Shown here piece by piece: positions 1 through 63,944 of a DNA stretch of 64,000 nucleotides. This DNA is from Tetradesmus obliquus (taxonomy: Eukaryota; Chlorophyta; Chlorophyceae; Sphaeropleales; Scenedesmaceae): NCBI GenBank assembly GCA_030272155.1, contig CP126194.1, positions 186,001-250,000 on the forward strand, written 5' to 3'. Position numbers and translations under genes: made by a program. A model generated the notes under the pieces. The model ran no database searches. It was not told the DNA's origin and saw only the letters and a program-made list of their open reading frames with translations. The number at the start of each line of letters is the position of its first letter. The first letter of the stretch is position 1.

Positions 1-741
1 CTGAATGTGGATGTGCAAGTGGATGATAAGGGACGCCCATTCATCAGGCTTGAGGCAGATGGGAAAAGCAGGCCCAGGATCATCAGCTTGGGGATACGCA
101 AGCGGCCACTGCACTGGGCCATGACGGGTTGCCTGCCAGGTGTGCAGCACTTCAAGTTCTGCGAGCCGCGCGCTGCCGCAACTGAAGCAGCTCTGGAGTG
201 CAAGCAGTGTGCATGTTTGATGCCTAATGTGGGTGGCACAGGCGCACGCAACATGCCTGCAAGTGAGGAGCAGCTGATGCGCAAGCTGTACAGGTTGGGA
301 ATATGTGACAGCATGTGCGCGCAAGTGGCAGTAGGGTGGTGGCGAGGCCGGGTCGATTTCTTGCATGCGCAGCGCAGCGTGCTGATTCAAGCAGATGGGA
401 CATGCCATGACACTGGTATGTATGACAACAGCACAGAGAAGCTGTTGCAGCGCAACGTTGCCTTCTGTGCTGCTGCGTATGCCAAGTTCCTGCCAGCAGG
501 CGGCAGTGTGCTGCGGGTGCGCACATGTGAAAGTGACTGGCAGGATTCCCTGGAGACTGGTTTCCAGCTTGCTGCTGGGGGTGGTGTCATTGTGCTGTCA
601 CCAAGCTACTCTGTTGTTATGGTCAGCGCAGGCCGCGGTGTGCAGCGCGCCTTCCCTGAGGCACTGCGAGATGCACTGCCACGTTGTGTGTACACAGAAC
701 GCAACAGCTGGCATGTCCTTCAATGGCGCGCATCTAACTAA
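1..741 (+). CDS. Vsr/EDxHD-like nuclease, 5'-truncated by window edge
   Basis: Only exon 2 is present, from residue 43 of the spliced model to the TAA stop. The catalytic region is intact: VDF near 473-481 on the equivalent copy scale, then ADGTCHD in the middle. Exon 1 and the first part of exon 2 lie upstream of the window. The copy at 2821 carries the full description. Confidence 0.7.
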   Translation: MNVDVQVDDKGRPFIRLEADGKSRPRIISLGIRKRPLHWAMTGCLPGVQHFKFCEPRAAATEAALECKQCACLMPNVGGTGARNMPASEEQLMRKLYRLGICDSMCAQVAVGWWRGRVDFLHAQRSVLIQADGTCHDTGMYDNSTEKLLQRNVAFCAAAYAKFLPAGGSVLRVRTCESDWQDSLETGFQLAAGGGVIVLSPSYSVVMVSAGRGVQRAFPEALRDALPRCVYTERNSWHVLQWRASN

Positions 742-758
742 TAGCAGCACACACTCAC

Positions 759-1637
759 ATAGTATGGTGTGTTGGGGTTGCCAACGTGGTCAATGTTGTC
801 TGTTGTGCCGGTGGTGAACTTGCAGTAGACAGCGCCGTGCACCGCGTTGACGGCGCACACAAAGTGTAGCTTGACTGGTTTGTTGTCCTGGCCCTTGCGC
901 ATCCACTTGCATGGTAGCACAGCATGTACGTTTGCATCATGTGCATCGCAATACACCTTGATGGCGCCGCCTGCTAGGTTGGACATCCAGAGTTTGCACT
1001 CATCAACAAAATAAATTCTGCTCAGCAAGTCTGGCTCATCCTGGAACATCTTGTAGAGCCTCTCTGCTGCAGCCTTTCTCCTGTCTTTCTGCTTGTCTGT
1101 CAGGTCCATCTTTACATCTATTCTTCTGCGCACCAGGTTGGGGTCGACAGCTTTCATGCGCTTCAGCAGTTGCTTGGGCCTGATGTTGTACTTCCTGCAT
1201 AGGCCACCCAGGTACTCATTTTCCTGACAAGCAAGTTTGATTGATGTCCACCATACATGCACGTCGACTTTCTTCTTTGCTTCTGCACTTGGGTAGGCCT
1301 TGACTACCTTGCCAGCTTTGAATGTTTCACTGGCCTTTAATGCCACGTCATCTGGGACTTTTGGGGGTCTGCCCTTGTGCTTGGGAGTTGCCACCGTGCC
1401 ATACTGCTTGAAGTTCTTGTAGTGGGTCATGCAGAAGGAATTCAGGTCCTGTTTGATTTGAGCAGCATGCTTAGGATAGTGTACTCTGTAATAGCCTGCC
1501 GCGCCCTTTGGACTGCCGGCGATGGCTAGCATCGTGAGCACCGCCACCACCGCCGCCACCCGCGCGCCCGTTGACTTGCGGTTGCTCTCCCATCCCAAAG
1601 GGTGCTTGCGCACCATGGACAGCCACCCTGCAGCCAT
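759..1637 (-). CDS. Tc1/mariner-like transposase, exon 1 only (partial)
   Basis: This is exon 1 (residues 1-293: DNA-binding region and first catalytic Asp). The GT donor lies at 758-757, directly after the TAT codon, and exon 2 falls outside the window to the left. Reading through the donor would add six residues and then a TAG. The following spacer is an empty insertion site with central T. Confidence 0.8.
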
Positions 1638-1741
1638 GGATTCAAAACATATGCAGGCGTCAGCTGTGCTTCTGCTAGCAGTGCAAACAGAAATAACATG
1701 TCAGGTCAACCTAATGTTTGCAGCAACCTGGGGTTTGACCA

Positions 1742-1754
1742 GCCTTCTGAAGGC
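1742..1754. repeat. Empty insertion site, 13-bp palindrome, central T
   Basis: GCCTTC-T-GAAGGC. In seven other units the central three bases (CTG here) are replaced by one or two 723-bp elements. It is either an unoccupied target or an excision footprint. Confidence 0.75.
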
Positions 1755-2250
1755 AAAAATGCACATCTTCCTTTGCTGCAGCAGTTCTCAGCCTGCATTG
1801 CAATCCTGCTGCTGCTGTTTCTGGGCAAAGTTGATGAATTGCCTGCCCACCTGTTTATGTTATAGCAGGCCTGCTGCAGCTGCTGCTGGTGGTGCAGCTG
1901 TCCCAAATCCTGCATTACTGTTGTTTGCAATTGCTGGGACCTGCCTGGCCAGCAGCACATTCAGCAGCAGACAGCAGAGTGCAGCTCAGAGGAGGGTGCT
2001 GTCACCTGCTGTAGCCTCTGTTTTTCGAATGCACACTTTGCCAGGCAAGACAGCAGCAGCAGCAGCCTGGTGGTCATGCAGTGCTGCTGCTAAATTTTCA
2101 AAAGCACATTCAGAGCACAGCCTTGTCTTGAAAGACGTTTTAAAAGCAATCCGAATTGTCTGCTGTTGCTGCCGCAGCACGATCGAGCTGGCGTAGCCTG
2201 CACAGGTGTCTTGGACTCACTGGCTCCGTGACCAGGCTGGCTGCCCGGCG

Positions 2251-2282
2251 TCTTACCGGAGAAAATTCTCGGCCCAGTAAGA
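2251..2282. repeat. Interrupted inverted repeat in spacer
   Basis: The outer arms TCTTAC (2251-2256) and GTAAGA (2277-2282) flank an inner GAGAA-AA-TTCTC. The same structure occurs in every spacer. It could form a hairpin in DNA or RNA, or be a remnant of two abutting element ends. No function can be assigned. Confidence 0.45.
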
Positions 2283-2820
2283 TGTAAGAATCAGCTATTA
2301 TGTATGAGGATAAGTTTGCAGCGTGACAGCTGTCTGCATCGAGAGTGGCTGATTCGGCAGCACTTCCCCGTCACGGATTACCTGACTCAAACACAGCTTT
2401 CTCCTGCCGTGCGTCAGCTCAATTTAATTCTTGAATAGATGTTATTACAATGCCAAGAGTGCAGCGACATCAATGCATCCTGCTTGGTAGGGCAACCGTT
2501 GAGACAAGTAACGTGTGGTTCAGTAGCTGGAGCTGCATGAAGCACATGTTAGCACGTACAATAATTAATTTCAACCGTAACAAGTACAATCATTCACGCA
2601 CATCGGCTCAACTCGCCTGCATGTGAACTGCCCATCAACAGCACTGCTGCCCTGGCAGAACTGCCTTGCCACGCGCCCGCGCTTTTCACTCTGGGCCAGT
2701 CTATGCACCAATACACCATCTGACAATTATTATCAGATAACAATCTATCAACTAATCATGCCTGTGGCTGTCCATGCTGGCATACAGTTGAAAACAAAGA
2801 CATAACCACCCAGCTACAGC

Positions 2821-4331
2821 ATGGCACCAGCACATCGCCGGCGCCGTGCGGTGCGCACACACAGGAGCCCAACCAGCAGAGGAGCTGTCAGAAAGGTGAG
2901 CTTGCAGGGAGTGTCAATCAACGACCTGCTGACAGCTGCTAGCTGTCTAGAGTGCAGCCAGCAGCCATATACATTCTAAGCCCTGCAGCAGCAGCAGCAG
3001 CGTGCTCAGCGCTGATCATCCCTAGGCCAGTTGCCAGCCGTACCCGTGCGCTGCTTGTTGTCACGGCATACAAACACCCTGTCCAGCCTGCTGCGCACCA
3101 CATCCCACAAATCTGGCAGCCTCAGTGCATCAGCCATGACAGAGGCAGGTGTGATGTTCATGAATGTGTCACGCAGCGTCCGCTGCAGATCACGCGGTGA
3201 TACATCTGCACCAGTCAGCTGGTAGGTGTTGTACAGATGGTTACGGAAGCTAGCCTTGAGGCTGCCGAATGCATGCTCAATGGGCTGGTTGAAGTCTGGG
3301 GAGTAGGGTGCAATTTGCAGCACCTGCTCTGGGCTGATGCCAACTGCAGCTAGGAGCTCTGCGGCATCTTGCCCGACATGAACACTGGGGTTGTCGAAGA
3401 TGTACAGCGGCGTAGTGCCGCGCGTGCGCTGCTGTTGGTTAGCCTTCTCTGCAAGCTCCTTCATGCAGTGGACAAACTCCAGCTGTGTCATGCTCTTGGC
3501 CTTCACGTTCTTCTTCTTCTTCTGCCTCTTCAACTGCAGGTGCAGGTTTTGCCGGGTTGGCAGCGGAAAGCCTTGTTAGCAGCAGCGCAGCTGAATGTGG
3601 ATGTGCAAGTGGATGATAAGGGACGCCCATTCATCAGGCTTGAGGCAGATGGGAAAAGCAGGCCCAGGATCATCAGCTTGGGGATACGCAAGCGGCCACT
3701 GCACTGGGCCATGACGGGTTGCCTGCCAGGTGTGCAGCACTTCAAGTTCTGCGAGCCGCGCGCTGCCGCAACTGAAGCAGCTCTGGAGTGCAAGCAGTGT
3801 GCATGTTTGATGCCTAATGTGGGTGGCACAGGCGCACGCAACATGCCTGCAAGTGAGGAGCAGCTGATGCGCAAGCTGTACAGGTTGGGAATATGTGACA
3901 GCATGTGCGCGCAAGTGGCAGTAGGGTGGTGGCGAGGCCGGGTCGATTTCTTGCATGCGCAGCGCAGCGTGCTGATTCAAGCAGATGGGACATGCCATGA
4001 CACTGGTATGTATGACAACAGCACAGAGAAGCTGTTGCAGCGCAACGTTGCCTTCTGTGCTGCTGCGTATGCCAAGTTCCTGCCAGCAGGCGGCAGTGTG
4101 CTGCGGGTGCGCACATGTGAAAGTGACTGGCAGGATTCCCTGGAGACTGGTTTCCAGCTTGCTGCTGGGGGTGGTGTCATTGTGCTGTCACCAAGCTACT
4201 CTGTTGTTATGGTCAGCGCAGGCCGCGGTGTGCAGCGCGCCTTCCCTGAGGCACTGCGAGATGCACTGCCACGTTGTGTGTACACAGAACGCAACAGCTG
4301 GCATGTCCTTCAATGGCGCGCATCTAACTAA
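2821..4331 (+). CDS. Probable Vsr/EDxHD-type homing-like endonuclease (two exons)
   Basis: Model: exon 1 2821-2895, intron 2896-3539 (donor AAG|GTGAGC; acceptor CTGCAG|GTG after a long pyrimidine tract at 3501-3533), exon 2 3540-4331, both boundaries phase 0, giving 288 residues. The ATG lies in a good context (CAGCATGGC). Exon 1 encodes an arginine-rich leader (HRRRR, residues 5-9) that could act as a nuclear localisation signal. Exon 2 shows a cysteine pair CKQC at residues 109-112 that might be half a zinc site, then a restriction-like core: E131/E132, VDF with D161, IQADG with D174, H178-D179, and a later VLRVRTCE strand. This order (E, D, x, HD) matches the Vsr-related EDxHD nucleases and DUF559-like folds. 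The expected role is sequence-specific DNA cleavage. The whole catalytic exon lies inside the intron of the antisense transposase. An unspliced reading from an upstream ATG at 3369 is possible, but its leader is antisense to transposase codons. The fold is a motif-level call. Confidence 0.72.
2931..2947. repeat. Perfect 7-bp hairpin inside nuclease intron
   Basis: GACAGCT-GCT-AGCTGTC lies 36 bp after the nuclease 5' splice site and about 60 bp beyond the transposase stop on the other strand. It could be incidental, or affect splicing or transposase 3'-end formation. It is present in every copy. Confidence 0.4.
2986..3000. repeat. (CAG)5 microsatellite
   Basis: Five CAG triplets lie 5 bp past the transposase stop codon and within the nuclease intron. 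The triplet is abundant throughout the unit. The length is the same in the copies I compared. Confidence 0.8.
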
Positions 4332-5227
4332 TAGCAGCACACACTCACATAGTATGGTGTGTTGGGGTTGCCAACGTGGTCAATGTTGTCTGTTGTGCCG
4401 GTGGTGAACTTGCAGTAGACAGCGCCGTGCACCGCGTTGACGGCGCACACAAAGTGTAGCTTGACTGGTTTGTTGTCCTGGCCCTTGCGCATCCACTTGC
4501 ATGGTAGCACAGCATGTACGTTTGCATCATGTGCATCGCAATACACCTTGATGGCGCCGCCTGCTAGGTTGGACATCCAGAGTTTGCACTCATCAACAAA
4601 ATAAATTCTGCTCAGCAAGTCTGGCTCATCCTGGAACATCTTGTAGAGCCTCTCTGCTGCAGCCTTTCTCCTGTCTTTCTGCTTGTCTGTCAGGTCCATC
4701 TTTACATCTATTCTTCTGCGCACCAGGTTGGGGTCGACAGCTTTCATGCGCTTCAGCAGTTGCTTGGGCCTGATGTTGTACTTCCTGCATAGGCCACCCA
4801 GGTACTCATTTTCCTGACAAGCAAGTTTGATTGATGTCCACCATACATGCACGTCGACTTTCTTCTTTGCTTCTGCACTTGGGTAGGCCTTGACTACCTT
4901 GCCAGCTTTGAATGTTTCACTGGCCTTTAATGCCACGTCATCTGGGACTTTTGGGGGTCTGCCCTTGTGCTTGGGAGTTGCCACCGTGCCATACTGCTTG
5001 AAGTTCTTGTAGTGGGTCATGCAGAAGGAATTCAGGTCCTGTTTGATTTGAGCAGCATGCTTAGGATAGTGTACTCTGTAATAGCCTGCCGCGCCCTTTG
5101 GACTGCCGGCGATGGCTAGCATCGTGAGCACCGCCACCACCGCCGCCACCCGCGCGCCCGTTGACTTGCGGTTGCTCTCCCATCCCAAAGGGTGCTTGCG
5201 CACCATGGACAGCCACCCTGCAGCCAT
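3006..5227 (-). CDS. Tc1/mariner-type DDE transposase (two exons)
   Basis: Model: exon 1 5227-4349, intron 4348-3534 (donor TAT|GTGAGTG; acceptor CACCTGCAG|TTG), exon 2 3533-3006, phase 0, 468 residues. Transposases of this family bind terminal inverted repeats and cut and paste the element. Visible: a GRPPK linker at 89-93, like the GRPR motif between helix-turn-helix domains; a DLTDKQKDRR segment near 178-187 that leads into the catalytic core in this family; the first catalytic residue D212 in IYFVDE; D340 in YIFDN; and E379 in SPDFNQPIEH. There are 38 residues between the last two (DD38E by my count). The domain runs smoothly only if the exons are joined: exon 1 has the first Asp and exon 2 the other two catalytic residues. 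Residues 27-41 are unusually hydrophobic, so translation may start later (Met8 or Met36). The family core seems to begin near residue 42. Terminal inverted repeats were not found by eye. Confidence 0.85.
3534..3539. promoter_or_regulatory. Shared palindromic 3' splice site, both strands
   Basis: CTGCAG reads the same on both strands. On plus its AG ends at 3539 and nuclease exon 2 starts at 3540. On minus its AG ends at 3534 and transposase exon 2 starts at 3533. Both exons continue in the expected frame. A second in-frame plus-strand acceptor (GTGCAG) ends at 3545 and would remove two residues. Equivalent hexamers lie at 7844, 11434, 15024, 18614, 22924, 26514, 30104, 34414, 39447, 43037, 47347, 51657, 55247, 58837 and 63147. 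Confidence 0.65.
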
Positions 5228-7130
5228 GGATTCAAAACATATGCAGGCGTCAGCTGTGCTTCTGCTAGCAGTGCAAACAGAAATAACATGTCAGGTCAAC
5301 CTAATGTTTGCAGCAACCTGGGGTTTGACCAGCCTTCACTAGGCACTGGTACGAAAGTAGCGCAAAGGCAGCATACTCATTGAATGCAACTTTCAACAAC
5401 GAATCTAAATCAAATTGAGCCACTATATGGGGTGCTGTGTAACTTGAGTAAAGTGCTTGCAAACCACCTGCTGCGCCCCGACTCTTTGAATTTTCGCGGG
5501 TCTGTTATCTGCTGCTTTCTGCTGCTATAGGGCGCTGCTGCCTGCACATATGTATTCATGTAACCGGTTCTACTTCTGGGCAGCACTTGCTGGCTGATCA
5601 GGCTCTGCAGTTGTGGTGTGCCAAGTGCCCTGCCGCTGTTGTTGCGGTCTGCTGTCTGGCCCTGTACGTTGTGCGCTGCGCTGCTGCTGCTAATCTTGTT
5701 GCGGATCACCGATCGACGTTTCAGCATTACAGGCAGCTGCTGCGCGTGTGCAGCTAGGGTGGTTGAGCACAGTTGGTTGAGTGCTGCCATTCCACACACT
5801 CTCCTGCAGACATTCATCTTGTGTGATCACGCTGAATTCTGGAGCTGAAAAGAACTAGCAGTTTGGAGCGGGCGCTGCAAGCAGGTGAGGTGCCTGCAGG
5901 ACAGCTGACATGCAAGCAAACCAAGGCAGCAGGTTCAGCAGCTGTGCCTTGCTGTACCTACCACAAGCAGCAGGTTGCTGTGCCAGCATGGCTTTCTGTT
6001 TGTGTGCTATGTGGCTTTGTCTCATATCTGGGATGCTAGGTTCGTACCCTACCCCACTGAAGGCAAAAATGCACATCTTCCTTTGCTGCAGCAGTTCTCA
6101 GCCTGCATTGCAATCCTGCTGCTGCTGTTTCTGGGCAAAGTTGATGAATTGCCTGCCCACCTGTTTATGTTATAGCAGGCCTGCTGCAGCTGCTGCTGGT
6201 GGTGCAGCTGTCCCAAATCCTGCATTACTGTTGTTTGCAATTGCTGGGACCTGCCTGGCCAGCAGCACATTCAGCAGCAGACAGCAGAGTGCAGCTCAGA
6301 GGAGGGTGCTGTCACCTGCTGTAGCCTCTGTTTTTCGAATGCACACTTTGCCAGGCAAGACAGCAGCAGCAGCAGCCTGGTGGTCATGCAGTGCTGCTGC
6401 TAAATTTTCAAAAGCACATTCAGAGCACAGCCTTGTCTTGAAAGACGTTTTAAAAGCAATCCGAATTGTCTGCTGTTGCTGCCGCAGCACGATCGAGCTG
6501 GCGTAGCCTGCACAGGTGTCTTGGACTCACTGGCTCCGTGACCAGGCTGGCTGCCCGGCGTCTTACCGGAGAAAATTCTCGGCCCAGTAAGATGTAAGAA
6601 TCAGCTATTATGTATGAGGATAAGTTTGCAGCGTGACAGCTGTCTGCATCGAGAGTGGCTGATTCGGCAGCACTTCCCCGTCACGGATTACCTGACTCAA
6701 ACACAGCTTTCTCCTGCCGTGCGTCAGCTCAATTTAATTCTTGAATAGATGTTATTACAATGCCAAGAGTGCAGCGACATCAATGCATCCTGCTTGGTAG
6801 GGCAACCGTTGAGACAAGTAACGTGTGGTTCAGTAGCTGGAGCTGCATGAAGCACATGTTAGCACGTACAATAATTAATTTCAACCGTAACAAGTACAAT
6901 CATTCACGCACATCGGCTCAACTCGCCTGCATGTGAACTGCCCATCAACAGCACTGCTGCCCTGGCAGAACTGCCTTGCCACGCGCCCGCGCTTTTCACT
7001 CTGGGCCAGTCTATGCACCAATACACCATCTGACAATTATTATCAGATAACAATCTATCAACTAATCATGCCTGTGGCTGTCCATGCTGGCATACAGTTG
7101 AAAACAAAGACATAACCACCCAGCTACAGC
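5228..7130. other. Intergenic spacer carrying one 723-bp insert
   Basis: Same layout as the spacer at 1638-2820 but interrupted at 5337-6059 by the mobile element. The rest (CAG/CTG-rich block, inverted repeats) follows from 6060. Confidence 0.6.
5337..6059. mobile_element. 723-bp non-autonomous element with imperfect inverted ends
   Basis: It runs from CACTAGG to CCCCACTG and replaces the three central bases of the empty-site palindrome, between CCTT and AAGG. The left end CACTAGGCACTGGTACGAA pairs with the reverse complement of the right end, CAGTGGGGTAGGGTACGAA, at 13 of 19 positions. Counting the flanking GCCTTC and inner TAGC gives 22 of 30. No direct target duplication is visible. It encodes no recognisable protein; the longest minus-strand frame (135 codons, 5410-5817) has no known motif and looks incidental. 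The CACTA start recalls CACTA (En/Spm) elements but the other end is CACTG, so the family is unassigned. It lies 110 bp upstream of the transposase ATG and may alter its promoter. Confidence 0.7.
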
Positions 7131-8641
7131 ATGGCACCAGCACATCGCCGGCGCCGTGCGGTGCGCACACACAGGAGCCCAACCAGCAGAGGAGCTGTCA
7201 GAAAGGTGAGCTTGCAGGGAGTGTCAATCAACGACCTGCTGACAGCTGCTAGCTGTCTAGAGTGCAGCCAGCAGCCATATACATTCTAAGCCCTGCAGCA
7301 GCAGCAGCAGCGTGCTCAGCGCTGATCATCCCTAGGCCAGTTGCCAGCCGTACCCGTGCGCTGCTTGTTGTCACGGCATACAAACACCCTGTCCAGCCTG
7401 CTGCGCACCACATCCCACAAATCTGGCAGCCTCAGTGCATCAGCCATGACAGAGGCAGGTGTGATGTTCATGAATGTGTCACGCAGCGTCCGCTGCAGAT
7501 CACGCGGTGATACATCTGCACCAGTCAGCTGGTAGGTGTTGTACAGATGGTTACGGAAGCTAGCCTTGAGGCTGCCGAATGCATGCTCAATGGGCTGGTT
7601 GAAGTCTGGGGAGTAGGGTGCAATTTGCAGCACCTGCTCTGGGCTGATGCCAACTGCAGCTAGGAGCTCTGCGGCATCTTGCCCGACATGAACACTGGGG
7701 TTGTCGAAGATGTACAGCGGCGTAGTGCCGCGCGTGCGCTGCTGTTGGTTAGCCTTCTCTGCAAGCTCCTTCATGCAGTGGACAAACTCCAGCTGTGTCA
7801 TGCTCTTGGCCTTCACGTTCTTCTTCTTCTTCTGCCTCTTCAACTGCAGGTGCAGGTTTTGCCGGGTTGGCAGCGGAAAGCCTTGTTAGCAGCAGCGCAG
7901 CTGAATGTGGATGTGCAAGTGGATGATAAGGGACGCCCATTCATCAGGCTTGAGGCAGATGGGAAAAGCAGGCCCAGGATCATCAGCTTGGGGATACGCA
8001 AGCGGCCACTGCACTGGGCCATGACGGGTTGCCTGCCAGGTGTGCAGCACTTCAAGTTCTGCGAGCCGCGCGCTGCCGCAACTGAAGCAGCTCTGGAGTG
8101 CAAGCAGTGTGCATGTTTGATGCCTAATGTGGGTGGCACAGGCGCACGCAACATGCCTGCAAGTGAGGAGCAGCTGATGCGCAAGCTGTACAGGTTGGGA
8201 ATATGTGACAGCATGTGCGCGCAAGTGGCAGTAGGGTGGTGGCGAGGCCGGGTCGATTTCTTGCATGCGCAGCGCAGCGTGCTGATTCAAGCAGATGGGA
8301 CATGCCATGACACTGGTATGTATGACAACAGCACAGAGAAGCTGTTGCAGCGCAACGTTGCCTTCTGTGCTGCTGCGTATGCCAAGTTCCTGCCAGCAGG
8401 CGGCAGTGTGCTGCGGGTGCGCACATGTGAAAGTGACTGGCAGGATTCCCTGGAGACTGGTTTCCAGCTTGCTGCTGGGGGTGGTGTCATTGTGCTGTCA
8501 CCAAGCTACTCTGTTGTTATGGTCAGCGCAGGCCGCGGTGTGCAGCGCGCCTTCCCTGAGGCACTGCGAGATGCACTGCCACGTTGTGTGTACACAGAAC
8601 GCAACAGCTGGCATGTCCTTCAATGGCGCGCATCTAACTAA
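7131..8641 (+). CDS. Vsr/EDxHD-like nuclease, copy 2
   Basis: Exon 1 7131-7205, exon 2 7850-8641. It lies just downstream of an insert-bearing spacer, so its upstream 1.07 kb is unchanged while the element sits farther away. Confidence 0.7.
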
Positions 8642-9537
8642 TAGCAGCACACACTCACATAGTATGGTGTGTTGGGGTTGCCAACGTGGTCAATGTTGTC
8701 TGTTGTGCCGGTGGTGAACTTGCAGTAGACAGCGCCGTGCACCGCGTTGACGGCGCACACAAAGTGTAGCTTGACTGGTTTGTTGTCCTGGCCCTTGCGC
8801 ATCCACTTGCATGGTAGCACAGCATGTACGTTTGCATCATGTGCATCGCAATACACCTTGATGGCGCCGCCTGCTAGGTTGGACATCCAGAGTTTGCACT
8901 CATCAACAAAATAAATTCTGCTCAGCAAGTCTGGCTCATCCTGGAACATCTTGTAGAGCCTCTCTGCTGCAGCCTTTCTCCTGTCTTTCTGCTTGTCTGT
9001 CAGGTCCATCTTTACATCTATTCTTCTGCGCACCAGGTTGGGGTCGACAGCTTTCATGCGCTTCAGCAGTTGCTTGGGCCTGATGTTGTACTTCCTGCAT
9101 AGGCCACCCAGGTACTCATTTTCCTGACAAGCAAGTTTGATTGATGTCCACCATACATGCACGTCGACTTTCTTCTTTGCTTCTGCACTTGGGTAGGCCT
9201 TGACTACCTTGCCAGCTTTGAATGTTTCACTGGCCTTTAATGCCACGTCATCTGGGACTTTTGGGGGTCTGCCCTTGTGCTTGGGAGTTGCCACCGTGCC
9301 ATACTGCTTGAAGTTCTTGTAGTGGGTCATGCAGAAGGAATTCAGGTCCTGTTTGATTTGAGCAGCATGCTTAGGATAGTGTACTCTGTAATAGCCTGCC
9401 GCGCCCTTTGGACTGCCGGCGATGGCTAGCATCGTGAGCACCGCCACCACCGCCGCCACCCGCGCGCCCGTTGACTTGCGGTTGCTCTCCCATCCCAAAG
9501 GGTGCTTGCGCACCATGGACAGCCACCCTGCAGCCAT
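7316..9537 (-). CDS. Tc1/mariner-type transposase, copy 2
   Basis: Exon 1 9537-8659, exon 2 7843-7316. Its upstream site is empty (central A). Confidence 0.83.
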
Positions 9538-10720
9538 GGATTCAAAACATATGCAGGCGTCAGCTGTGCTTCTGCTAGCAGTGCAAACAGAAATAACATG
9601 TCAGGTCAACCTAATGTTTGCAGCAACCTGGGGTTTGACCAGCCTTCAGAAGGCAAAAATGCACATCTTCCTTTGCTGCAGCAGTTCTCAGCCTGCATTG
9701 CAATCCTGCTGCTGCTGTTTCTGGGCAAAGTTGATGAATTGCCTGCCCACCTGTTTATGTTATAGCAGGCCTGCTGCAGCTGCTGCTGGTGGTGCAGCTG
9801 TCCCAAATCCTGCATTACTGTTGTTTGCAATTGCTGGGACCTGCCTGGCCAGCAGCACATTCAGCAGCAGACAGCAGAGTGCAGCTCAGAGGAGGGTGCT
9901 GTCACCTGCTGTAGCCTCTGTTTTTCGAATGCACACTTTGCCAGGCAAGACAGCAGCAGCAGCAGCCTGGTGGTCATGCAGTGCTGCTGCTAAATTTTCA
10001 AAAGCACATTCAGAGCACAGCCTTGTCTTGAAAGACGTTTTAAAAGCAATCCGAATTGTCTGCTGTTGCTGCCGCAGCACGATCGAGCTGGCGTAGCCTG
10101 CACAGGTGTCTTGGACTCACTGGCTCCGTGACCAGGCTGGCTGCCCGGCGTCTTACCGGAGAAAATTCTCGGCCCAGTAAGATGTAAGAATCAGCTATTA
10201 TGTATGAGGATAAGTTTGCAGCGTGACAGCTGTCTGCATCGAGAGTGGCTGATTCGGCAGCACTTCCCCGTCACGGATTACCTGACTCAAACACAGCTTT
10301 CTCCTGCCGTGCGTCAGCTCAATTTAATTCTTGAATAGATGTTATTACAATGCCAAGAGTGCAGCGACATCAATGCATCCTGCTTGGTAGGGCAACCGTT
10401 GAGACAAGTAACGTGTGGTTCAGTAGCTGGAGCTGCATGAAGCACATGTTAGCACGTACAATAATTAATTTCAACCGTAACAAGTACAATCATTCACGCA
10501 CATCGGCTCAACTCGCCTGCATGTGAACTGCCCATCAACAGCACTGCTGCCCTGGCAGAACTGCCTTGCCACGCGCCCGCGCTTTTCACTCTGGGCCAGT
10601 CTATGCACCAATACACCATCTGACAATTATTATCAGATAACAATCTATCAACTAATCATGCCTGTGGCTGTCCATGCTGGCATACAGTTGAAAACAAAGA
10701 CATAACCACCCAGCTACAGC
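9538..10720. other. Intergenic spacer, empty-site type A
   Basis: 1,183 bp. It differs visibly from the 1638 spacer only at the palindrome centre (A at 9648). Confidence 0.6.
9642..9654. repeat. Empty insertion site palindrome, central A
   Basis: GCCTTC-A-GAAGGC: the reverse-complement state of the T form at 1742. Confidence 0.75.
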
Positions 10721-12231
10721 ATGGCACCAGCACATCGCCGGCGCCGTGCGGTGCGCACACACAGGAGCCCAACCAGCAGAGGAGCTGTCAGAAAGGTGAG
10801 CTTGCAGGGAGTGTCAATCAACGACCTGCTGACAGCTGCTAGCTGTCTAGAGTGCAGCCAGCAGCCATATACATTCTAAGCCCTGCAGCAGCAGCAGCAG
10901 CGTGCTCAGCGCTGATCATCCCTAGGCCAGTTGCCAGCCGTACCCGTGCGCTGCTTGTTGTCACGGCATACAAACACCCTGTCCAGCCTGCTGCGCACCA
11001 CATCCCACAAATCTGGCAGCCTCAGTGCATCAGCCATGACAGAGGCAGGTGTGATGTTCATGAATGTGTCACGCAGCGTCCGCTGCAGATCACGCGGTGA
11101 TACATCTGCACCAGTCAGCTGGTAGGTGTTGTACAGATGGTTACGGAAGCTAGCCTTGAGGCTGCCGAATGCATGCTCAATGGGCTGGTTGAAGTCTGGG
11201 GAGTAGGGTGCAATTTGCAGCACCTGCTCTGGGCTGATGCCAACTGCAGCTAGGAGCTCTGCGGCATCTTGCCCGACATGAACACTGGGGTTGTCGAAGA
11301 TGTACAGCGGCGTAGTGCCGCGCGTGCGCTGCTGTTGGTTAGCCTTCTCTGCAAGCTCCTTCATGCAGTGGACAAACTCCAGCTGTGTCATGCTCTTGGC
11401 CTTCACGTTCTTCTTCTTCTTCTGCCTCTTCAACTGCAGGTGCAGGTTTTGCCGGGTTGGCAGCGGAAAGCCTTGTTAGCAGCAGCGCAGCTGAATGTGG
11501 ATGTGCAAGTGGATGATAAGGGACGCCCATTCATCAGGCTTGAGGCAGATGGGAAAAGCAGGCCCAGGATCATCAGCTTGGGGATACGCAAGCGGCCACT
11601 GCACTGGGCCATGACGGGTTGCCTGCCAGGTGTGCAGCACTTCAAGTTCTGCGAGCCGCGCGCTGCCGCAACTGAAGCAGCTCTGGAGTGCAAGCAGTGT
11701 GCATGTTTGATGCCTAATGTGGGTGGCACAGGCGCACGCAACATGCCTGCAAGTGAGGAGCAGCTGATGCGCAAGCTGTACAGGTTGGGAATATGTGACA
11801 GCATGTGCGCGCAAGTGGCAGTAGGGTGGTGGCGAGGCCGGGTCGATTTCTTGCATGCGCAGCGCAGCGTGCTGATTCAAGCAGATGGGACATGCCATGA
11901 CACTGGTATGTATGACAACAGCACAGAGAAGCTGTTGCAGCGCAACGTTGCCTTCTGTGCTGCTGCGTATGCCAAGTTCCTGCCAGCAGGCGGCAGTGTG
12001 CTGCGGGTGCGCACATGTGAAAGTGACTGGCAGGATTCCCTGGAGACTGGTTTCCAGCTTGCTGCTGGGGGTGGTGTCATTGTGCTGTCACCAAGCTACT
12101 CTGTTGTTATGGTCAGCGCAGGCCGCGGTGTGCAGCGCGCCTTCCCTGAGGCACTGCGAGATGCACTGCCACGTTGTGTGTACACAGAACGCAACAGCTG
12201 GCATGTCCTTCAATGGCGCGCATCTAACTAA
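10721..12231 (+). CDS. Vsr/EDxHD-like nuclease, copy 3
   Basis: Exon 1 10721-10795, exon 2 11440-12231. All catalytic motifs are retained. Confidence 0.7.
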
Positions 12232-13127: not shown

Positions 13128-14310
13128 GGATTCAAAACATATGCAGGCGTCAGCTGTGCTTCTGCTAGCAGTGCAAACAGAAATAACATGTCAGGTCAAC
13201 CTAATGTTTGCAGCAACCTGGGGTTTGACCAGCCTTCTGAAGGCAAAAATGCACATCTTCCTTTGCTGCAGCAGTTCTCAGCCTGCATTGCAATCCTGCT
13301 GCTGCTGTTTCTGGGCAAAGTTGATGAATTGCCTGCCCACCTGTTTATGTTATAGCAGGCCTGCTGCAGCTGCTGCTGGTGGTGCAGCTGTCCCAAATCC
13401 TGCATTACTGTTGTTTGCAATTGCTGGGACCTGCCTGGCCAGCAGCACATTCAGCAGCAGACAGCAGAGTGCAGCTCAGAGGAGGGTGCTGTCACCTGCT
13501 GTAGCCTCTGTTTTTCGAATGCACACTTTGCCAGGCAAGACAGCAGCAGCAGCAGCCTGGTGGTCATGCAGTGCTGCTGCTAAATTTTCAAAAGCACATT
13601 CAGAGCACAGCCTTGTCTTGAAAGACGTTTTAAAAGCAATCCGAATTGTCTGCTGTTGCTGCCGCAGCACGATCGAGCTGGCGTAGCCTGCACAGGTGTC
13701 TTGGACTCACTGGCTCCGTGACCAGGCTGGCTGCCCGGCGTCTTACCGGAGAAAATTCTCGGCCCAGTAAGATGTAAGAATCAGCTATTATGTATGAGGA
13801 TAAGTTTGCAGCGTGACAGCTGTCTGCATCGAGAGTGGCTGATTCGGCAGCACTTCCCCGTCACGGATTACCTGACTCAAACACAGCTTTCTCCTGCCGT
13901 GCGTCAGCTCAATTTAATTCTTGAATAGATGTTATTACAATGCCAAGAGTGCAGCGACATCAATGCATCCTGCTTGGTAGGGCAACCGTTGAGACAAGTA
14001 ACGTGTGGTTCAGTAGCTGGAGCTGCATGAAGCACATGTTAGCACGTACAATAATTAATTTCAACCGTAACAAGTACAATCATTCACGCACATCGGCTCA
14101 ACTCGCCTGCATGTGAACTGCCCATCAACAGCACTGCTGCCCTGGCAGAACTGCCTTGCCACGCGCCCGCGCTTTTCACTCTGGGCCAGTCTATGCACCA
14201 ATACACCATCTGACAATTATTATCAGATAACAATCTATCAACTAATCATGCCTGTGGCTGTCCATGCTGGCATACAGTTGAAAACAAAGACATAACCACC
14301 CAGCTACAGC
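13128..14310. other. Intergenic spacer, empty-site type T
   Basis: 1,183 bp with the palindrome at 13232-13244. Confidence 0.6.
13232..13244. repeat. Empty insertion site palindrome, central T
   Basis: GCCTTC-T-GAAGGC, identical to the site at 1742. Confidence 0.75.
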
Positions 14311-24617: not shown

Positions 24618-25800
24618 GGATTCAAAACATATGCAGGCGTCAGCTGTGCTTCTGCTAGCAGTGCAAACAGAAATAACATGTCAGGTCAACCTAATGTTTG
24701 CAGCAACCTGGGGTTTGACCAGCCTTCAGAAGGCAAAAATGCACATCTTCCTTTGCTGCAGCAGTTCTCAGCCTGCATTGCAATCCTGCTGCTGCTGTTT
24801 CTGGGCAAAGTTGATGAATTGCCTGCCCACCTGTTTATGTTATAGCAGGCCTGCTGCAGCTGCTGCTGGTGGTGCAGCTGTCCCAAATCCTGCATTACTG
24901 TTGTTTGCAATTGCTGGGACCTGCCTGGCCAGCAGCACATTCAGCAGCAGACAGCAGAGTGCAGCTCAGAGGAGGGTGCTGTCACCTGCTGTAGCCTCTG
25001 TTTTTCGAATGCACACTTTGCCAGGCAAGACAGCAGCAGCAGCAGCCTGGTGGTCATGCAGTGCTGCTGCTAAATTTTCAAAAGCACATTCAGAGCACAG
25101 CCTTGTCTTGAAAGACGTTTTAAAAGCAATCCGAATTGTCTGCTGTTGCTGCCGCAGCACGATCGAGCTGGCGTAGCCTGCACAGGTGTCTTGGACTCAC
25201 TGGCTCCGTGACCAGGCTGGCTGCCCGGCGTCTTACCGGAGAAAATTCTCGGCCCAGTAAGATGTAAGAATCAGCTATTATGTATGAGGATAAGTTTGCA
25301 GCGTGACAGCTGTCTGCATCGAGAGTGGCTGATTCGGCAGCACTTCCCCGTCACGGATTACCTGACTCAAACACAGCTTTCTCCTGCCGTGCGTCAGCTC
25401 AATTTAATTCTTGAATAGATGTTATTACAATGCCAAGAGTGCAGCGACATCAATGCATCCTGCTTGGTAGGGCAACCGTTGAGACAAGTAACGTGTGGTT
25501 CAGTAGCTGGAGCTGCATGAAGCACATGTTAGCACGTACAATAATTAATTTCAACCGTAACAAGTACAATCATTCACGCACATCGGCTCAACTCGCCTGC
25601 ATGTGAACTGCCCATCAACAGCACTGCTGCCCTGGCAGAACTGCCTTGCCACGCGCCCGCGCTTTTCACTCTGGGCCAGTCTATGCACCAATACACCATC
25701 TGACAATTATTATCAGATAACAATCTATCAACTAATCATGCCTGTGGCTGTCCATGCTGGCATACAGTTGAAAACAAAGACATAACCACCCAGCTACAGC
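24618..25800. other. Intergenic spacer, empty-site type A
   Basis: 1,183 bp with the palindrome at 24722-24734. Confidence 0.6.
24722..24734. repeat. Empty insertion site palindrome, central A
   Basis: GCCTTC-A-GAAGGC, 15,080 bp from the site at 9642. Confidence 0.75.
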
Positions 25801-36216: not shown

Positions 36217-36939
36217 CACTAGGCACTGGTACGAAAGTAGCGCAAAGGCAGCATACTCATTGAATGCAACTTTCAACAACGAATCTAAATCAAATTGAGC
36301 CACTATATGGGGTGCTGTGTAACTTGAGTAAAGTGCTTGCAAACCACCTGCTGCGCCCCGACTCTTTGAATTTTCGCGGGTCTGTTATCTGCTGCTTTCT
36401 GCTGCTATAGGGCGCTGCTGCCTGCACATATGTATTCATGTAACCGGTTCTACTTCTGGGCAGCACTTGCTGGCTGATCAGGCTCTGCAGTTGTGGTGTG
36501 CCAAGTGCCCTGCCGCTGTTGTTGCGGTCTGCTGTCTGGCCCTGTACGTTGTGCGCTGCGCTGCTGCTGCTAATCTTGTTGCGGATCACCGATCGACGTT
36601 TCAGCATTACAGGCAGCTGCTGCGCGTGTGCAGCTAGGGTGGTTGAGCACAGTTGGTTGAGTGCTGCCATTCCACACACTCTCCTGCAGACATTCATCTT
36701 GTGTGATCACGCTGAATTCTGGAGCTGAAAAGAACTAGCAGTTTGGAGCGGGCGCTGCAAGCAGGTGAGGTGCCTGCAGGACAGCTGACATGCAAGCAAA
36801 CCAAGGCAGCAGGTTCAGCAGCTGTGCCTTGCTGTACCTACCACAAGCAGCAGGTTGCTGTGCCAGCATGGCTTTCTGTTTGTGTGCTATGTGGCTTTGT
36901 CTCATATCTGGGATGCTAGGTTCGTACCCTACCCCACTG
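36217..36939. mobile_element. 723-bp element, first of a head-to-tail pair
   Basis: The left flank is CCTT. The right end CCCCACTG abuts the next copy's CACTAGG with no extra base. Confidence 0.72.
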
Positions 36940-37662
36940 CACTAGGCACTGGTACGAAAGTAGCGCAAAGGCAGCATACTCATTGAATGCAACTTTCAAC
37001 AACGAATCTAAATCAAATTGAGCCACTATATGGGGTGCTGTGTAACTTGAGTAAAGTGCTTGCAAACCACCTGCTGCGCCCCGACTCTTTGAATTTTCGC
37101 GGGTCTGTTATCTGCTGCTTTCTGCTGCTATAGGGCGCTGCTGCCTGCACATATGTATTCATGTAACCGGTTCTACTTCTGGGCAGCACTTGCTGGCTGA
37201 TCAGGCTCTGCAGTTGTGGTGTGCCAAGTGCCCTGCCGCTGTTGTTGCGGTCTGCTGTCTGGCCCTGTACGTTGTGCGCTGCGCTGCTGCTGCTAATCTT
37301 GTTGCGGATCACCGATCGACGTTTCAGCATTACAGGCAGCTGCTGCGCGTGTGCAGCTAGGGTGGTTGAGCACAGTTGGTTGAGTGCTGCCATTCCACAC
37401 ACTCTCCTGCAGACATTCATCTTGTGTGATCACGCTGAATTCTGGAGCTGAAAAGAACTAGCAGTTTGGAGCGGGCGCTGCAAGCAGGTGAGGTGCCTGC
37501 AGGACAGCTGACATGCAAGCAAACCAAGGCAGCAGGTTCAGCAGCTGTGCCTTGCTGTACCTACCACAAGCAGCAGGTTGCTGTGCCAGCATGGCTTTCT
37601 GTTTGTGTGCTATGTGGCTTTGTCTCATATCTGGGATGCTAGGTTCGTACCCTACCCCACTG
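36940..37662. mobile_element. 723-bp element, second of a head-to-tail pair
   Basis: It begins directly at CACTAGG and ends CCCCACTG before AAGG. The exact 723-bp period fixes the element's boundaries. Confidence 0.72.
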
Positions 37663-62433: not shown

Positions 62434-63944
62434 ATGGCACCAGCACATCGCCGGCGCCGTGCGGTGCGCACACACAGGAGCCCAACCAGCAGAGGAGCTG
62501 TCAGAAAGGTGAGCTTGCAGGGAGTGTCAATCAACGACCTGCTGACAGCTGCTAGCTGTCTAGAGTGCAGCCAGCAGCCATATACATTCTAAGCCCTGCA
62601 GCAGCAGCAGCAGCGTGCTCAGCGCTGATCATCCCTAGGCCAGTTGCCAGCCGTACCCGTGCGCTGCTTGTTGTCACGGCATACAAACACCCTGTCCAGC
62701 CTGCTGCGCACCACATCCCACAAATCTGGCAGCCTCAGTGCATCAGCCATGACAGAGGCAGGTGTGATGTTCATGAATGTGTCACGCAGCGTCCGCTGCA
62801 GATCACGCGGTGATACATCTGCACCAGTCAGCTGGTAGGTGTTGTACAGATGGTTACGGAAGCTAGCCTTGAGGCTGCCGAATGCATGCTCAATGGGCTG
62901 GTTGAAGTCTGGGGAGTAGGGTGCAATTTGCAGCACCTGCTCTGGGCTGATGCCAACTGCAGCTAGGAGCTCTGCGGCATCTTGCCCGACATGAACACTG
63001 GGGTTGTCGAAGATGTACAGCGGCGTAGTGCCGCGCGTGCGCTGCTGTTGGTTAGCCTTCTCTGCAAGCTCCTTCATGCAGTGGACAAACTCCAGCTGTG
63101 TCATGCTCTTGGCCTTCACGTTCTTCTTCTTCTTCTGCCTCTTCAACTGCAGGTGCAGGTTTTGCCGGGTTGGCAGCGGAAAGCCTTGTTAGCAGCAGCG
63201 CAGCTGAATGTGGATGTGCAAGTGGATGATAAGGGACGCCCATTCATCAGGCTTGAGGCAGATGGGAAAAGCAGGCCCAGGATCATCAGCTTGGGGATAC
63301 GCAAGCGGCCACTGCACTGGGCCATGACGGGTTGCCTGCCAGGTGTGCAGCACTTCAAGTTCTGCGAGCCGCGCGCTGCCGCAACTGAAGCAGCTCTGGA
63401 GTGCAAGCAGTGTGCATGTTTGATGCCTAATGTGGGTGGCACAGGCGCACGCAACATGCCTGCAAGTGAGGAGCAGCTGATGCGCAAGCTGTACAGGTTG
63501 GGAATATGTGACAGCATGTGCGCGCAAGTGGCAGTAGGGTGGTGGCGAGGCCGGGTCGATTTCTTGCATGCGCAGCGCAGCGTGCTGATTCAAGCAGATG
63601 GGACATGCCATGACACTGGTATGTATGACAACAGCACAGAGAAGCTGTTGCAGCGCAACGTTGCCTTCTGTGCTGCTGCGTATGCCAAGTTCCTGCCAGC
63701 AGGCGGCAGTGTGCTGCGGGTGCGCACATGTGAAAGTGACTGGCAGGATTCCCTGGAGACTGGTTTCCAGCTTGCTGCTGGGGGTGGTGTCATTGTGCTG
63801 TCACCAAGCTACTCTGTTGTTATGGTCAGCGCAGGCCGCGGTGTGCAGCGCGCCTTCCCTGAGGCACTGCGAGATGCACTGCCACGTTGTGTGTACACAG
63901 AACGCAACAGCTGGCATGTCCTTCAATGGCGCGCATCTAACTAA
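62434..63944 (+). CDS. Vsr/EDxHD-like nuclease, copy 16
   Basis: Exon 1 62434-62508, exon 2 63153-63944. Complete despite lying near the window end. Confidence 0.7.

Follow-up and report, generated by a model that had tools for sequence, protein, structure and literature searches.

Likely antisense nesting of a transposase gene and a putative nuclease gene in a tandem transposon-like array of Tetradesmus obliquus

The locus: a tandem array of units X and elements Y

The window analyzed here is a 64,000-nt stretch of a Tetradesmus obliquus contig (CP126194.1), both ends of which lie in the interior of an array that continues past the left and right window edges. The array is built of a 3,587-bp unit, X (one complete example at 1750..5336; no strand assigned), and a 723-bp element, Y (5337..6059; likewise unstranded), with 15 complete X copies, all identical, and eight identical Y copies in the window. 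Two partial X copies at the window ends (1,746 and 2,638 bases) match the corresponding part of X exactly. The termini of X display an inverted repeat of only 5 bp (AAGGC/GCCTT), and no outer transposon ends were seen within the window. The unit is visibly CAG/CTG-rich, which, like its splice signals, would fit a green-algal source; poly(A) signals, looked for in the sequence, gave nothing clear, TRF (longest period covered, 500) reported no tandem repeats, Rfam returned no match on positions 1-11000, and a tRNA search found none.

The minus strand of X encodes a transposase of the Tc1/mariner-IS630 (DDE_3) type, and its plus strand a putative nuclease. The window contains 16 nuclease starts and 15 complete gene pairs, the pair in the copy at 62434 being truncated and another partial copy lying at the window start. 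The original prediction had this gene arrangement repeated 16 times, a figure that fits the nuclease starts but not the complete pairs; moreover, as all X copies are identical, the 16-fold repetition represents one sequence that was amplified and provides no independent tests. The same identity makes a substitution-based coding test impossible.

A DDE transposase split by a probable intron

The transposase is encoded by exon 1 (4349..5227, minus strand; 293 codons), comprising the N-terminal region and the motif with the first catalytic aspartate (D1; IYFVDE), and exon 2 (3006..3533, minus strand), comprising the second aspartate (D2; IFDN), the glutamate (E; QPIEH), and the DDE_3 domain. Joining them across a proposed 815-nt intron (3534..4348, minus strand; GTGAGT...CTGCAG) at GT-AG boundaries in phase 0 yields an open 468-aa frame. 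Its catalytic triad consists of D212, D340, and E379, with 127 and 38 residues between them; the first lies in exon 1 and the other two in exon 2, bearing out the earlier claim that the join restores a D-D-E triad. This DDxE spacing falls within the range usual for Tc1/mariner-IS630 transposases, and the NPIE motif occurs with one extra residue (NQPIE).

In profile searches, Pfam DDE_3 matched exon 2 (28.9 bits against a cut-off of 28.6; E 1.2e-6) as the sole Pfam match of the spliced transposase, and scored 31.9 bits on the fragment from D1 to E. The NCBIfam IS630 model recovered exon 2 with E 3.9e-7, yet at 29.8 bits against a cut-off of 100, i.e., below its equivalog cut-off. Exon 1 alone matched no transposase family in Pfam, NCBIfam, or PHROGs, and no N-terminal HTH family was matched at the thresholds used; its matches to UBact (E 0.02-0.03), PADLOC Cas1b (E 0.036), and two PHROGs were set aside as chance-level.

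An IS630 profile was assembled from 13 plasmid regions (L002-L014), of which 11 were used, L008 and L012 being without a single-frame segment carrying both motifs. Exon 1 residues 175-216, around the first catalytic aspartate, aligned to profile positions 8-49 and exon 2 to positions 122-178; the exon 1 score of 1.1 bits was equalled by 35 of 3000 shuffles, nine of those over the D1 column. A phmmer comparison with SETMAR likewise aligned residues 175-222 at 2.4 bits (not significant alone) and a stretch of exon 2 at 11.9 bits, with a whole-sequence E of 0.096. The D1 region and exon 2 align in the right order, the former weakly, and the two exons thus appear to contain complementary portions of a single catalytic domain.

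There are 202 in-frame GT-AG combinations between D1 and D2; by a simple consensus score, the proposed donor is the best of 19 usable in frame and the acceptor the best of 21, and a branch-like CTAAC lies 42 nt before the intron's end. Splicing of the transposase intron (4348-3534) is thus well supported indirectly by the domain order across the join, the splice-site ranking, and the matching codon usage of the exons, and we consider it very probable.

A putative nuclease on the opposite strand

The plus-strand gene would comprise an arginine-rich, NLS-like exon 1 (2821..2895; 25 codons) and an exon 2 (3540..4331) with a VDF...IQADGTCHD core, upstream of which lie cysteines that might bind zinc. 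The proposed 644-nt intron (2896..3539, plus strand) begins with GTGAGC, ends with a pyrimidine tract followed by CTGCAG, and holds transposase exon 2 in antisense. Joining at its GT-AG boundaries, again in phase 0, gives an open 288-aa frame. Pfam DUF559 aligned to this protein below its cut-off (E 0.22 at spliced residues 127-192 and E 0.16 on a fragment; 11.9-12.3 bits against 20.6), and a PDB search extending to E 10 was empty. The series of motifs (E..L, Q, VDF, IQADG, and H) is one that we take to resemble DUF559/Vsr proteins, with Q replacing the usual E, a substitution that leaves nuclease activity not assured. The sub-threshold DUF559 match and the motifs together are the basis for calling it a putative DUF559/Vsr-like nuclease, and hence for the label of nuclease given originally. 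A match to a PHROG regulator (E 0.1) was set aside as chance-level.

The donor at 2896 is the best of eight, and its AGGTGAG[CT] occurs nowhere else on the two strands of the unit. The acceptor at 3540 ranks joint third of 48, with 3469 and 3638 scoring higher and 3583 and 3730 equally, and no CTRAY branch-like site occurs in the last 120 nt of the intron. Using either transposase exon as codon table, the exon 2 frame is the best of six, once narrowly; neither exon 1 (25 codons) nor the initial 57 codons of exon 2 give a codon or frame signal. As a control, the first 110 bases of the intron, with the exon 1 frame continued, scored +0.33 to +0.44, above both exon 1 and early exon 2; as this presumed non-coding stretch scores higher, the codon measure cannot be relied on at lengths this short. 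Splicing of the nuclease intron (2896-3539) is, in our estimate, moderately probable. The splicing proposed in the original prediction accordingly stands well for the transposase and is only plausible for the nuclease, given the acceptor rank, the missing exon 1 codon signal and CTRAY site, and an in-frame ATG at 3378.

Translation from this ATG would give a nuclease without splicing, its extension lying antisense to transposase exon 2 sequence, and a second in-frame ATG is present at 3711 (exon 2 residue 58). They open the foremost alternative, namely one-way nesting, in which the transposase is spliced and an unspliced nuclease, starting at 3378 or 3711, lies antisense inside its intron. The DUF559-like core begins downstream of both ATGs, which, with the silent exon 1 and an acceptor at 3540 that is not the top scorer, makes such a gene a real possibility. 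Nonetheless, we lean away from it: the unit's strongest donor follows the ATG at 2821, the N-terminus encoded there is basic, and over 3354-3539, with codon usage taken from the remainder of the nuclease, the nuclease frame scores -0.25 against +0.17 for the transposase frame (the other tables applied to this segment contain the transposase and make the comparison circular).

Proposed interlocking of the two genes

If both introns are spliced as proposed, the transposase intron (4348-3534, minus strand) contains nuclease exon 2 and the nuclease intron (2896-3539, plus strand) contains transposase exon 2, the spliced coding sequences having zero bases in common. Our analysis reproduced the coordinates, strands, GT-AG ends, phases, and open frames (288 and 468 aa) first given for the two genes, as well as the placement of each second exon within the partner's intron. 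The second exons are separated by the six bases of a CTGCAG palindrome (3534..3539, both strands), which would act as the 3' splice site of both introns. CTGCAG is common in the unit (eight observed, about nine expected); hence, an acceptor common to both introns is unsurprising by itself. GTGAG[CT] occurs at four sites in the 3,590-bp unit, counting both strands (3.6 expected), two of the four being the proposed donors, and the probabilities of finding it in each usable window are ~0.13 and 0.08, or ~0.01 jointly with the phase requirement not yet included. We regard these figures as supportive, not overwhelming.

The coding potential of the locus was assessed in two further ways. The two longest stop-to-stop frames, of 325 and 320 codons, lie above the corresponding 95th percentiles under a Markov null (251 and 192), but the longest null frame reached 365. 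In codon cross-tests among the three coding segments, the proposed frame was the best of six in all six comparisons, one of them narrowly (-0.068 against -0.081). On the evidence for the two introns, an antisense nesting of the transposase and nuclease genes is likely, and the balance tips slightly toward their reciprocal interlocking. Antisense genes nested in introns are a known arrangement, and the present locus is alike in placing an opposite-strand gene inside an intron but differs in that the nesting would be reciprocal; our literature searches showed nothing equal, a statement confined to the literature searched.

Read on the opposite strand, the pyrimidine tract before the nuclease acceptor (3495-3539) corresponds to the Lys-rich beginning of transposase exon 2 (KRQKKKKNVKAK), by virtue of which a single stretch may serve two constraints.

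Element Y and the joints between X units

Y has imperfect terminal inverted repeats that match at 17 of 25 terminal positions, including a GGTACGAA..TAGC core, a level equalled by 7 of 200000 random pairs drawn from the unit. It starts with CACTAGG and ends with CCCCACTG and, the Y-Y contact excepted, is flanked by GCCTT on one side and AAGGC on the other. The window has 16 joints between consecutive X copies: six contain one Y, one contains two (1,446 bp), five consist of CAG (9647..9649; also at 24727, 41250, 53460, and 57050), and four of CTG (1747..1749; also at 13237, 16827, and 28317; no strand applies to either type). Every one of the nine Y-less joints is thus exactly three bases long. 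Neither Y nor these joints featured in the original prediction.

The excision footprints of Sleeping Beauty are likewise CAG or CTG, left because its 3-nt overhangs are unable to pair (PMC3952818, PMC7351741, PMC3432063); the 3-nt overhangs at excision are described in PMC7351741, and the resulting TAC[A/T]GTA at excision sites in PMC3432063. Given the terminal triplets of Y, CAC and CTG, annealing of comparable overhangs would be expected to give C-[A/T]-[C/G], a formula that both observed joint types satisfy. This suggests that the three-base joints are scars of Y excision, although the CAG/CTG richness of the unit somewhat weakens the footprint argument. In our view, no other feature of the window is as informative about mechanism as Y and the CAG/CTG joints. 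The excision events may have been few: a single one with a segregating mismatch, or two, with array segments duplicated afterwards.

Alternatively, the joints might be 3-bp CWG target duplications of X itself, or plain recombination scars, rather than footprints of Y; mobility of X could likewise produce joints of 3 bp, and in a CAG/CTG-rich sequence such triplets are at hand. This reading appears improbable to us, as an X flanked by Y has CTG on its left and CAC on its right, i.e., no duplication, and both CAG and CTG are present, as expected from the resolution of mismatched Y overhangs. An insertion of Y with a 3-bp target duplication was rejected on account of its terminal triplets, CAC and CTG.

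Within the array, there is no TA target duplication around Y, which is flanked by TT and AA; the outer array ends lie beyond the window. At 36217..37662, two Y copies abut directly with zero bases between them, and this contact has neither scar nor duplication. Excision of Y as proposed here does not account for this scarless contact or for the TT/AA flanks in place of TA/TA.

The perfect identity of the copies may reflect recent amplification or a contribution of the assembly. That the array itself, or its perfect identity, is an artefact of repeat assembly is prompted by the 15 identical X and eight identical Y copies over 64 kb, but we think it rather unlikely: the four joint types follow in irregular order and would presumably have needed some read support, and the gene and joint structure is in any case independent of copy number.

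Searches for relatives

A related-locus search confirmed no relatives among viral and genome contigs. For the nuclease, tblastn found no match in phages and two weak matches in plasmids, from Rhizobium (H1, E 0.5) and Streptomyces camelliae (H2, E 0.3). The DNA of the former has a longer open frame on the opposite strand, and its E of 8e-6 in a small comparison set reflects the tiny database only. A pattern of the ADGTCHD type recovered 13 viral stretches whose similarity to the nuclease was confined to short local alignments (lowest E among them, 0.20). DUF559 was found in one of three plasmid records in one set and none of ten in the other (13 in all), and the neighbors of the single match are annotated as DUF2726. 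The DNA of Y had no match in phages.

For the transposase, tblastn against plasmids recovered 130 records with the whole protein, and the 20 of these that were listed all match exon 2 only and are mostly annotated as IS630 or unannotated; exon 2 alone recovered 126. Exon 1 alone gave no match there, and pattern searches with the transposase motifs found none. The lack of close relatives in the collections searched would also suit a decayed locus, in which a nuclease-bearing insertion broke the transposase gene and left the pieces as pseudogene remnants, but this is very improbable, as all frames are open, in-phase GT-AG removal restores the D-D-E triad, and codon usage agrees across the exons.

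Comparison with known systems and a proposed mechanism

Among the closest parallels in organization is KolobokP (Kojima and Bao, PMC9587614), in which a transposase and a complementary-strand nuclease are combined with excisable terminal direct repeats that have their own inverted repeats, and which forms multimers whose internal-internal joints are attributed to repeat excision. Both systems combine a DDD/E transposase with a nuclease encoded on the complementary strand, and in both an internal unit takes turns with direct repeats, which measure about 450 or 660 bp in KolobokP (PMC9587614) and 723 bp in our array. The (repeat-internal)n pattern with a repeat that appears excisable is also seen here. 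They differ in that KolobokP pairs a Kolobok transposase with a His-Me finger nuclease, against DDE_3 and a DUF559-like protein (by a sub-threshold match) here, and has 3-4-bp microdeletions in place of 3-nt CAG/CTG; neither gene interlocking nor introns in either gene are described for it in the portion of PMC9587614 available to us. A further lineage named in that source, KolobokE, has a PD-D/ExK exonuclease-like protein. The likeness of our array to KolobokP is therefore one of apparent working, not of membership.

With Sleeping Beauty and other Tc1/mariner-IS630 elements, the array has in common the DDE_3 domain with its D-D-E triad and 3-nt CAG/CTG sequences, here probable scars (PMC3952818, PMC7351741, PMC3432063). 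It departs from them in its second gene, intron, composite layout, lack of a visible TA duplication, and NQPIE motif. YqaJ exonuclease domains, for their part, are of the PD-(D/E)XK class. One is found in ISL2EU, a two-ORF eukaryotic DNA transposon that encodes a transposase and a YqaJ-domain protein (PMC4482050); its transposase is of another superfamily, and a gene interlock is not mentioned in the part of that source at hand.

The explanation that we cautiously favor is that the locus is a eukaryotic composite DNA transposon of the Tc1/mariner-IS630 type, multimerized as a tandem array. Two spliced genes would lie on opposite strands of its internal unit X, one for a DDE transposase and one for a putative PD-(D/E)XK-like nuclease, with each exon 2 inside the partner's intron. 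Y, with its own terminal inverted repeats, would be the substrate of the X transposase, and its excision by 3-nt staggered cuts would leave CAG or CTG between two X copies. Recombination between identical units would enlarge the array, and the nuclease may stimulate it. The sequence itself shows the array, Y, the joints, the open frames, and the triad across the transposase join, whereas splicing, excision, and the roles of both proteins are inferred. What weighs against this explanation is that neither the nuclease nor exon 1 has a homologue in the collections searched, and that similarity through the joins amounts to the weak D1 alignment. The rank of the 3540 acceptor, the missing codon signal in nuclease exon 1 and early exon 2, the imperfect inverted repeats of Y, the lack of TA target duplications and of outer ends in the window, and the CAG/CTG richness of the unit count against it as well.

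A stronger version, which strikes us as unlikely, holds that the transposase of a mariner-type composite transposon and a homing-like nuclease have become fused as a single antisense locus with reciprocal interlocking; splicing would free each protein and prevent mRNA pairing, the transposase would cut out Y, and the nuclease would cut array joints and drive growth, producing a self-amplifying tandem transposon convergent with KolobokP.

On the favored explanation, if RNA confirms both introns, this compact mobile element would hold two opposite-strand protein genes, each hosting its partner's exon and separated by splicing only. Independently of the introns, the CAG/CTG joints would allow excision within a multimer to be read from the sequence, and the idea of repeat excision with nuclease-driven multimerization, drawn from KolobokP, would become testable in a second transposase superfamily. 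The two predicted pre-mRNAs would be complementary to each other along most of their extent, with spliced coding sequences free of complementary bases; splicing would hence separate two genes that could otherwise form dsRNA, and the interlock might possibly serve as an expression switch or in self-silencing.

Retention of the transposase intron would add six further residues (4328-4348) before a stop, giving a 299-aa product without D2 and E that could possibly function as a repressor.
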